From Pseudomonas lopnurensis (lineage in GTDB: Bacteria > Pseudomonadota > Gammaproteobacteria > Pseudomonadales > Pseudomonadaceae): DNA of 64,000 nucleotides. The position numbers were made by a program, and so were the translations under genes. The stretch is taken from assembly GCF_015070855.1 (NCBI RefSeq), contig NZ_JADDIX010000077.1, forward strand, positions 135,155 through 199,154, given 5' to 3'. The notes below the pieces were generated by a model. That model searched no databases. It was not told where the DNA came from and was given only the letters and a program-made list of their open reading frames with translations. Shown one piece after another: positions 2,457-50,051 of the stretch (its first letter is position 1; every line of letters begins with the position of its first letter).

Positions 2457-3203
2457 ATGAATGCTATTGCCGATCCACGCAGCACGCGTCAACTGCAAGC
2501 CGAACGCCTGGATGGCGAACAGGCCCTGCGCGAAGCCCAGGCCCTGCGCTATCGGGTATTCAGCGGTGAATTCGATGCCCGCCTGCAGGGCGCGGAGCTG
2601 GGCCTGGATATGGACGATTTCGACATTCACTGCCGCCATATCGGCGTACGCGACCTCATGACCGGCGAACTGGTCGCCACCACCCGCCTGCTGGATCACC
2701 TCACCGCGCGCCGGCTGGGCCGCTTCTACAGCGAAGAGGAATTCGCCCTGCACGGGCTGGCCGAGCTCGACGCGCCGGTGCTGGAGATCGGCCGCACCTG
2801 CGTCGATCCGGCCTACCGCAATGGCGCCACCATCGCGGTGCTCTGGAGCGAGCTGGCGGAGGTGCTCAACCAGGGCGGCTATCGCTACCTGATGGGCTGC
2901 GCCAGCATCCCGATGCGCGACGGCGGCATCCAGGCCCGGGCGATCATGCATCGCCTGCGCGAGGCGCACCTGAGTACCGAGCTGCTGCACGCGGAGCCCA
3001 GGATGCCCCTGCCCGAGCTGGAACTCGCGGATAACGTCACCGCCCAGTTGCCGCCCCTGCTCAAGGCCTACATGCGCCTCGGCGCGAAGATTTGCGGCGA
3101 GCCCTGCTGGGACCCCGACTTCCAGGTGGCGGACGTCTTCATCCTGCTCAAGCGCGAGGAGCTTTGCCCGCGCTACGCCCGCCACTTCAAGGCCGCGGTA
3201 TAG
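2457..3203 (+). CDS. olsB: L-ornithine N-alpha-acyltransferase OlsB
   Basis: OlsB transfers a 3-hydroxyacyl chain from acyl-ACP to ornithine, the first step of ornithine-lipid synthesis. The 248-residue protein is a GNAT-fold member of the OlsB/hemolysin-like family. Visible hallmarks are the N-terminal [16 protein letters not shown] stretch, the [15 protein letters not shown] acyl-donor loop around residues 115-130, and [13 protein letters not shown]. An AGGAGA ribosome binding site precedes the ATG. The TAG stop is followed immediately by the ATG of olsA, so the two genes form a tightly coupled operon. A Pho-box-like array upstream suggests induction under phosphate starvation. Confidence 0.95.
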
Positions 3204-48373: not shown

Positions 48374-48632
48374 TCGGGGCTCCTTCAGCGGGTTGCCATT
48401 GGCGGTTTCGTCGATGGATCGAGTGTCGGCGAGGCCCAGGCCTCCCACAACCAACCGGCCGCGAATGAATGCCCGGGCATAAGGCAGCGGGATGATCGCG
48501 GCGCCACGGCCGTACGGGCGATGCCACAGCCGGTTGGCCACTACGCCAGGTCATGAACAATTTTCAGCCAACAGGGTCTCAGGCCGCGCCGAAACAGCCC
48601 CTCGGGCATCTGCACCCAAACAACCCACAGAG

Positions 48633-48655
48633 TTTTCCACAGCTTTCGTGGATAA
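48633..48655. promoter_or_regulatory. DnaA-box module 1
   Basis: TTTTCCACA (48633-48641, plus; fits TTWTNCACA) faces CGTGGATAA (48647-48655), an inverted TTATCCACG with one mismatch, across a five-base gap. Confidence 0.55.
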
Positions 48656-48823
48656 GCCTCGACAACCTTCGCCGGCCATTTGGCACCCCTCGAAAGCACG
48701 TCAAGAAAGCGGCTAAACCAGCGCCAGTGCGGCGCTCAGCCGCACGCACAGCATTGCTGGACAAAAAATGTACGCACCACGCCAGCCCCGATGCGGCCTC
48801 GCCTGCAGCCGCTATTCCCAAGC

Positions 48824-48858
48824 TTATCCACAGATCGCTGCACAGACTTGGGGGATAA
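48824..48858. promoter_or_regulatory. DnaA-box module 2
   Basis: A perfect TTATCCACA (48824-48832) is followed by 17 bases and a weaker inverted box GGGGGATAA (48850-48858). A central CACA lies at 48841-48844. Confidence 0.6.
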
Positions 48859-48970
48859 GCCAGACGCTTGGAAATAGCCTTGGTCCTATCACATCGATGC
48901 TCATAATCAACGGGTCGGCAGGTCACGACGCCCATAAGATGGCTGCGTCAATCGCCGAAGGAGTCTGATC

Positions 48971-49048
48971 ATGTTCAATCGCAACCTGCTCGAACGCCTG
49001 TTCGCCAACTACGCCTCGGCGGCCGGCGGCGCCTGGATCGACGCATGA
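48971..49048 (+). CDS. Possible 25-residue small protein
   Basis: A 26-codon ORF, MFNRNLLERLFANYASAAGG followed by AWIDA and TGA. It is preceded by GAAGGAG seven bases before ATG and by a sigma70-like TTGGTC-N16-CATAAT about 70-90 bases upstream. The peptide could form an amphipathic helix. I know no family; it may be a genuine small protein, a leader peptide for the LOG gene 75 bases downstream, or the remnant of a longer gene. The strong ribosome binding site is the main support. Confidence 0.4.
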   Translation: MFNRNLLERLFANYASAAGGAWIDA

Positions 49049-49123
49049 CCCTGCCGGAGCGTCGCTTGGCCCCGGCGGCTGCCCGGCGTAACCTGCGCGC
49101 AGTTCCATTCAGCGGAGTCGACG

Positions 49124-49711
49124 ATGTCCCTGCGTTCCATTTGCGTTTTTTGTGGCGCCAGCACCGGTGCCAACCCGATCTATGAACAGGCCGCCACCGA
49201 ACTCGGCCACACCCTGGCGGCCAACGGCATCACCCTGGTCTATGGCGGCGGTGCCGTAGGCCTGATGGGTGTGGTGGCCGATGCCACGATGGCCGCTGGC
49301 GGCGAGGTCATCGGCATCATCCCCCAGAGTTTGAAGGATGCCGAGGTTGGCCATACCGGCCTCACACGCCTTGAGGTGGTCGACGGCATGCACGCGCGCA
49401 AGGCCCGGATGGCCGAACTGTCGGATGCCTTCATCGCGTTGCCCGGCGGCCTGGGGACCCTGGAAGAGCTGTTCGAAGTCTGGACCTGGGGCCAGCTCGG
49501 TTACCACAGCAAGCCGCTCGGCCTGCTCGACGTCAATCACTTCTACAGCAAACTCAGCCACTTCCTCGACCATCTGGTCGAGGAGCGTTTCGTGCGCCCC
49601 GCGCATCGCGACATGCTGCAGCGCAGCGACTCGGCGCAAACGCTGCTGCGGCTGCTCAACGACTGGCAGCCCACCGTACATGCCAGATGGGAAAAAACCG
49701 CACCGGCGTGA
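49124..49711 (+). CDS. LOG-family protein (cytokinin riboside 5'-monophosphate phosphoribohydrolase-like)
   Basis: A 195-residue LOG-fold protein with [15 protein letters not shown] near residue 8, [15 protein letters not shown] near 45 and the catalytic [20 protein letters not shown] near 107-126. Family members hydrolyse nucleoside 5'-monophosphates such as AMP or cytokinin nucleotides, releasing the base; PPnN-type relatives are nucleosidases. Length matches the short bacterial class. The gene is flanked on both sides by DnaA-box modules. Confidence 0.92.
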
Positions 49712-49834
49712 CCGCCGCGAGGTTCGGTAATACGGTCATCGCCCGTGTCCAACGGGCGATGCACGAGCTGAGCAAAATTCAACCAGCAATGCGAACGTGG
49801 CGAACGACGCGGCCTGGCGCCGCCTTTGCCCATG

Positions 49835-49869
49835 TTATCCACAGCAGCGTCCACAATAAGCGGGGATAA
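49835..49869. promoter_or_regulatory. DnaA-box module 3
   Basis: A perfect TTATCCACA (49835-49843), 17 bases, then a weaker inverted box CGGGGATAA (49861-49869). CACA lies centrally at 49852-49855, the same offset as in modules 2 and 4. Confidence 0.6.
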
Positions 49870-50016
49870 CCGAGCGCAAGCTCGCCAGCCTCGCCTCGCA
49901 TTTGCCCGAATTCACCCGTCTCGACGTTTTTTCCTTGGGACACAAGGTATTGAGCAAAGTTTGAACAAGCCGCACCAGGCCTGGCAGTGCAAGGCCTGGC
50001 GCGAGTCCTCCCAAGC

Positions 50017-50051
50017 TTATCCACAGAATGCTACACAGCTGAAGTGGATAA
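50017..50051. promoter_or_regulatory. DnaA-box module 4
   Basis: A perfect TTATCCACA (50017-50025), 17 bases, then the inverted AGTGGATAA (50043-50051, one mismatch). CACA lies at 50034-50037. The left flank CCCAAGC is shared with module 2. Confidence 0.62.

Follow-up and report, generated by a model that had tools for sequence, protein, structure and literature searches.

Layout of the locus

The analysed stretch of Pseudomonas lopnurensis DNA (64 kb; hereafter the window) carries a cluster of DnaA boxes whose neighbours are the mqo, PA4642, SulP, SDR, LOG, DUF2726 and DUF5924 genes. The boxes form four modules, all of them intergenic, and the LOG-family gene lies between modules 2 and 3. 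Within the window, TTATCCACA occurs exactly three times (48824, 49835 and 50017), and 17 bases after each copy an inverted GGATAA box follows, with CACA at a constant internal offset; the first-pass annotation had described both this arrangement and the lack of any further copy, and our search reproduced them. It had also set apart the module at 48633, in which TTTTCCACA stands opposite CGTGGATAA across a gap of 5 bases, as a type 12 bases shorter than the others. The facing boxes are there, but the reading of two module types one helical turn apart was dropped because one three-box geometry explains all four modules: box III (9 bases) is followed after three bases by box II in the same orientation and, after five more, by an inverted box I (boxIII-N3-boxII-N5-inverted boxI). 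The modules span 48621-48655, 48824-48858, 49835-49869 and 50017-50051. Modules 2-4 have TTATCCACA as box III and a weak box II (xxxxxCACA, with TTAT lost and CACA kept); in module 1, box II is strong (TTTTCCACA) and the weak box III (CAACCCACA, 48621-48629) lies three bases upstream. The array totals 12 boxes within 1.4 kb, three of them perfect. All four modules exactly match the pattern CACA-N8-CACA-N8-GGATAA, for which the window holds five matches at up to two mismatches (four exact), against 0.13 expected by chance. The features are as follows.

48555..48569, + strand: Fis-like dyad of module 1, GAACAATTTTCAGCC, one mismatch to GnnYAnnnnnTRnnC, at -66 from box III
48621..48629, + strand: box III of module 1, CAACCCACA, weak
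48633..48641, + strand: box II of module 1, TTTTCCACA
48647..48655, - strand: inverted box I of module 1, TTATCCACG
48759..48773, + strand: Fis-like dyad of module 2, GGACAAAAAATGTAC, perfect consensus, at -65
48824..48832, + strand: box III of module 2, TTATCCACA
48836..48844, + strand: box II of module 2, CGCTGCACA, weak, CACA kept
48850..48858, - strand: inverted box I of module 2, TTATCCCCC
49124..49711, + strand: LOG-family gene (TIGR00730), between modules 2 and 3
49770..49784, + strand: Fis-like dyad of module 3, GAGCAAAATTCAACC, one mismatch, at -65
49835..49843, + strand: box III of module 3, TTATCCACA
49847..49855, + strand: box II of module 3, GCGTCCACA, weak
49861..49869, - strand: inverted box I of module 3, TTATCCCCG
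49952..49966, + strand: Fis-like dyad of module 4, GAGCAAAGTTTGAAC, perfect consensus, at -65
50017..50025, + strand: box III of module 4, TTATCCACA
50029..50037, + strand: box II of module 4, TGCTACACA, weak
50043..50051, - strand: inverted box I of module 4, TTATCCACT

Upstream of the LOG gene, an ORF of 25 codons (48971-49048) is partly conserved among relatives at the DNA level and may encode a small protein.

Constraint on the boxes and on a Fis-like dyad

Pairs of TTATCC and GGATAA with start-to-start distances of 6-70 bp were picked, blind to the middle box, from 33 array regions. They occurred at a spacing of 29 (93 pairs) or 17 (9 pairs) and at no other spacing in that range, and among the 77 distinct pairs at spacing 29 the four letters of the internal CACA were conserved at 96, 100, 100 and 99%. 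When 85 distinct modules (from 117; exact cores only) were stacked, information was high in the boxes and in a block from -66 to -50, and there was almost none downstream from +37.

This upstream block fits the Fis consensus GnnYAnnnnnTRnnC (PMC8682772), which we scored at up to one mismatch. A match at -66/-65 was found in 52 of 62 distinct array modules with a weak box II and in 35 of 61 elements of the family with a strong box II, a set that includes first modules of arrays. Control offset pairs outside -85 to +40 gave at most nine matches in the array modules and seven in the strong-box-II elements; single offsets that overlap the boxes (-9, -2 and +2) give up to 23 matches too, a result of the boxes' own resemblance to the loose Fis consensus. 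Since perfect consensus matches are common in the window (77 against 45.5 expected), the evidence is the fixed offset and not the match itself. The genome encodes a Fis homologue with 58% identity to E. coli Fis. Thus, at the level of sequence matches, a Fis-like site stands at a set distance from the core, as in DARS2, but on the box III side, unlike in E. coli.

The IHF-like core at 48905 that had been proposed as part of the element fared otherwise: the one-mismatch match is present, but the consensus of the relatives departs from it, the array modules share no IHF offset, and it was rejected as a component since it is not conserved. The IHF consensus stood at -100 to -97 in just one of 60 array modules, so that no conserved IHF site of the DARS2 type was found in them. 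In the strong-box-II elements of Pseudomonadaceae, it was found at these offsets in 19 of 59 (control maximum 1), with IHF and Fis sites together in only seven.

Occurrence in the genome, genus and family

The genome itself (4.9 Mb, 100 contigs) holds five exact matches to the pattern, four in the array and one at a distance of 151 kb from it on the same contig, and none to a reversed control pattern. The scattered repeat family that the first-pass annotation had named as its own counter-explanation is therefore rejected: the genome-wide scan that it had called for revealed no random scatter. At one mismatch, three more matches appear, of which only the one on contig C64 resembles DnaA boxes (the others are on C14 and C69). 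In the genus (Stutzerimonas), all 41 genomes, this one included, have matches (197 in total, control 0); G008 and G009 have a single match each, and all the others at least one. In the family sample, 61 of 99 genomes have a match, and the control pattern gave four matches.

Several further cores were seen along the way. The fifth exact match (G000:C76:336172-336201) is a DARS-like core, with a Fis-like dyad, beside a gene for a 905-aa protein; this protein matched nothing in Pfam (1e-3) or NCBIfam (1e-15). The one-mismatch core on C64 (G000:C64:46948-46977) lies in a flagellar gene region near fliD. In other Pseudomonadaceae genera (L204, L207 and L208; L205, L206 and L209), cores are paired 508-519 bp apart and adjoin either a LonB-protease-like gene (a weak assignment, far below the NCBIfam cut-off) or a gene related to that for the 905-aa protein, which would fit a second conserved locus with paired cores. 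One core (L202, G037:C1:2032757) is found downstream of an error-prone DNA polymerase gene, at a distance of about 300 bp, and in one genus of the family (g18; L084, L086 and L215) two cores on opposite strands overlap with a 7-bp offset, giving a near-palindromic site.

The array is retained without the LOG gene

Synteny was followed at named loci around the DUF5924 gene (the best 80 of 266). At all 33 Stutzerimonas-type loci (L120-L152), the DUF5924 gene is preceded by at least two modules (up to one mismatch), which bears out the expectation that the array would be present at this locus in relatives. The one exception is Stutzerimonas kirkiae (L175), where the LOG and DUF5924 genes are present and no module was found at up to two mismatches. 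Azomonas (L153) retains two modules, and SulP, SDR and LOG were all unfound there. The other 46 DUF5924 loci (L154-L199) have zero modules, and the other 11 proteins of the window were not found near them, save for LOG in S. kirkiae.

The LOG gene is absent (tblastn, 1e-8) from eight of the 33 module-bearing loci and from seven of 20 genus loci, a set that overlaps the 33 in some genomes. Since the modules are kept in these eight loci, the LOG gene is a passenger, and the tie between array and LOG gene that the first-pass annotation had drawn was not borne out. All matches in a plasmid search with the LOG protein were below 60% identity.

Position on the chromosome

In nine Stutzerimonas genomes with a chromosome-length contig, the array and a dif-like site, dnaA and the array are separated by 21.7-25.9% of the chromosome. 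The array occupies either arm and falls at 0.43-0.55 of its replichore; for comparison, E. coli DARS2 lies 20.6% and DARS1 32.9% from oriC. The intergenic placement and conserved oriC distance that characterise DARS were thus both found in these nine genomes. A constant class-wide position was looked for in seven genomes of the class and not found: single elements lie approximately 1-35% from dnaA (some lengths rounded), and position is therefore conserved in the genus, not in the class.

Distribution across Gammaproteobacteria

The exact core occurs in 99 of 232 sampled genomes of the class (one control match). Outside the class, it was found in eight of 75 genomes of the phylum sample, in families f165 and f169, five of the eight in genus g234; the control gave two matches in all 100 genomes of that sample. 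From the class we took 39 loci of 34 genomes, chosen by contig room, with 41 modules in 31 families; dnaA was not found in any of these loci, which span 3.3-6.4 kb (tblastn, 1e-20). A Fis-like dyad stands at -67 to -65 in 29 of the 41 modules (control windows: mean 1.3, maximum 6) and in 23 of the 31 families, with a perfect dyad in 15 modules (control maximum 1). The IHF consensus, in a fixed orientation, lies at -100 to -97 in 26 modules (control mean 0.14, maximum 2), and both sites occur together in 23.

Match to the E. coli DARS cores

DARS is defined by three DnaA boxes at a common spacing, with box I opposed to boxes II and III (PMC5742627), of which boxes I and II act head-to-head (PMC8682772). 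The array modules have all three boxes, the opposed box I and the DARS1/DARS2 spacing. E. coli DARS1 (MG1655), TAATACACA-tgg-TTATCCACA-ggaat-AGTGGATAA, matches our pattern exactly, and DARS2, TCTTACACC-atg-TTATCCACA-gaaag-CTGGGATAA, matches it with one mismatch; the III-II spacing of DARS2, given as 2 bp in PMC11317965, is counted here as 3. The E. coli oriC/mioC, datA, purH, polA and nrdA regions gave no match at up to two mismatches. These five control regions are all DnaA-bound by ChIP-seq (PMC11317965, where rne, rpoH, dnaN, dnaA and nrdD are further bound regions), and the tandem III-II pair is present in several of them. Of the earlier suggestion of datA and DARS likeness, the DARS half thus held and the datA half did not. 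The DARS2 region at L032 contains a second one-mismatch three-box match (3136-3165), 316 bp from the core.

Neither E. coli element has a matching Fis-like dyad at -67. DARS2 has a one-mismatch IHF match at -97, with three more elsewhere in the scanned stretch.

A putative array of DARS-type elements

Geometry, conservation and position make a DnaA-regulating locus distinct from oriC a well supported reading of this sequence. That much of the first-pass proposal stands, as does its remark that no oriC genes are linked (dnaA is on another contig, C25); the LOG link, the IHF site and the module anatomy do not. Specifically, we propose, with a probability of about 0.62, that the locus is an array of four putative DARS-type DnaA nucleotide-exchange elements. 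In E. coli, DnaA at DARS loses ADP through the contact of boxes II and I, is released and rebinds ATP (PMC4245941, PMC8682772). By analogy, DnaA would assemble on the three boxes, the tandem III and II facing the inverted I, in intergenic DNA, with a Fis dimer bound approximately 50 bp upstream of the core; DnaA-ADP bound head-to-head at boxes II and I would give up its ADP, and the apo-DnaA would leave and take up ATP again, increasing DnaA-ATP ahead of the next initiation. Dose, and its timing once the fork has passed, would depend on the copy number of four and the mid-replichore position. Occupancy by DnaA and Fis, ADP release and the effect on initiation are all predictions from this analogy.

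Several observations count against the DARS reading. Modules 2-4 have a weak box II, one partner of the head-to-head pair; the array has no conserved IHF site, and the E. coli elements have no dyad at -67. S. kirkiae is without a module, and G008 and G009 have one match each. Distances from dnaA vary in the class, and the core also occurs in the eight genomes outside it. Because box II is weak and the IHF site is lacking, the array modules would represent a variant of DARS, and they may have lower activity or be adjusted to abundant DnaA or Fis.

The main rival, which we consider improbable though worth weighing, is a titration or inactivation site like datA, which would bind DnaA and so leave less of it free or ATP-bound once the fork has passed. 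So dense a cluster, 12 boxes in 1.4 kb with three perfect, would suit such a role, and in E. coli ChIP-seq DnaA prefers tandem double boxes spaced by 2 or 3 bp (PMC11317965). However, the constraint falls on an inverted box I whose 5-bp distance is fixed, something that titration would not demand; E. coli datA itself fails the three-box pattern at two mismatches, and the minimal datA includes an IHF site (PMC5742627), for which the array has no conserved counterpart. The weak box II and the missing IHF site, which set the array modules apart from E. coli DARS, could equally belong to a DnaA-binding element whose function is not yet named, for example in mid-replichore chromosome organisation; as the core geometry and the Fis-like site are already DARS features, we regard this as unlikely. 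At slightly longer odds stands a promoter region under DnaA and Fis control, through which the LOG gene or its neighbours would be regulated with the cell cycle. Some promoters are regulated by DnaA (PMC11317965) and the modules are intergenic, but they are kept in the LOG-free loci (8/33, and 7/20 in the genus), in loci where the upstream genes were unfound (L107, L108, L115 and L118) and in Azomonas, with its two modules and SulP, SDR and LOG unfound, and the composite recurs next to unrelated genes; regulation of LOG was rejected on the first of these grounds. A secondary or ancestral replication origin is very improbable: the boxes are clustered, and the title of a work cited in PMC4285127 refers to two putative Pseudomonas aeruginosa origins, but dnaA lies on contig C25 and 21.7-25.9% of the chromosome away in the nine relatives, E. 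coli oriC has no pattern match, and no AT-rich unwinding region is visible by eye.

Beyond the locus, the DARS reading leads to a wider proposal, for and against which we see even odds: that Gammaproteobacteria share an ancestral, phased DARS element composed of an IHF-like site (approximately -98), a Fis-like dyad (-66) and a DnaA core (0 to +34). E. coli DARS1 and DARS2 would be rearranged derivatives of this element and the Stutzerimonas locus a four-copy, IHF-free, mid-replichore array made from it, so that DnaA reactivation would be a class-wide replication control with a lineage-specific dosage.

The DARS elements of E. coli are well characterised, and DARS outside its close relatives is already in print. 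The DARS2 core with its IHF and Fis sites is conserved in gamma-proteobacteria related to E. coli (PMC4245941, PMC8682772), DARS is reported for a number of Gammaproteobacteria (PMC4451416, citing a 2009 paper), and DARS-like sequences are reported in V. cholerae (PMC6090056, citing the 2009 paper). Our literature search, whose coverage did not extend to the 2009 DARS discovery paper, found no paper on DARS in Pseudomonas. The available parts of PMC4245941, PMC4451416 and PMC6090056 name neither Pseudomonas nor a multi-copy array nor a fixed IHF-Fis-core spacing, and in the papers examined that contain both DARS and Pseudomonas, the latter is mentioned, in the parts available, solely in other contexts. 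The search thus agrees with the earlier statement that such a locus had not been described in this lineage, and, as far as we have seen, the Pseudomonadaceae elements, the four-copy array and the phased IHF-Fis-core architecture are new. A phased element in Pseudomonadaceae and at least 23 other families would offer concrete sites for asking class-wide whether replication is timed by DnaA reactivation, and the arrays, with two to four modules, are a natural dosage series. Their conservation in relatives points to a candidate conserved control of chromosome copying.

Comparison with known systems

An oriC would lie next to dnaA, which is on C25. Like the array, datA is an intergenic cluster of DnaA boxes that includes a tandem pair with 3-bp spacing, but it is without the inverted box I at 5 bp and carries an IHF site; the combination of DnaA boxes with an essential IHF site that marks datA was not found in the array. 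An orthologue of DARS1 or DARS2 would sit beside uvrB or mutH, the positions of the DARS-like sequences of Vibrio cholerae (PMC6090056), and the array adjoins neither.

With DARS1 (bioD-uvrB intergenic), the array shares the boxIII-N3-boxII-N5-inverted boxI core; DARS1 differs in having a single core, no Fis-like dyad at -67, other neighbours and a distance of 32.9% from oriC. DARS2, between rppH and mutH, resembles the array in its core (one mismatch) and in its distance from oriC (20.6% of the chromosome). In E. coli, DARS2 uses Fis (PMC4245941), and IHF is essential there (PMC5742627). Its order appears to be core, IHF sites, Fis sites (inferred from PMC4245941), and its one perfect Fis match is on the box I side at +191, whereas the array has its Fis-like dyad on the box III side at -65, no IHF site and four cores. 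Finally, boxes III and II form a tandem pair of the kind described as the double DnaA box (Stringer et al., PMC11317965), to which the array adds the inverted box I and the Fis-like dyad.
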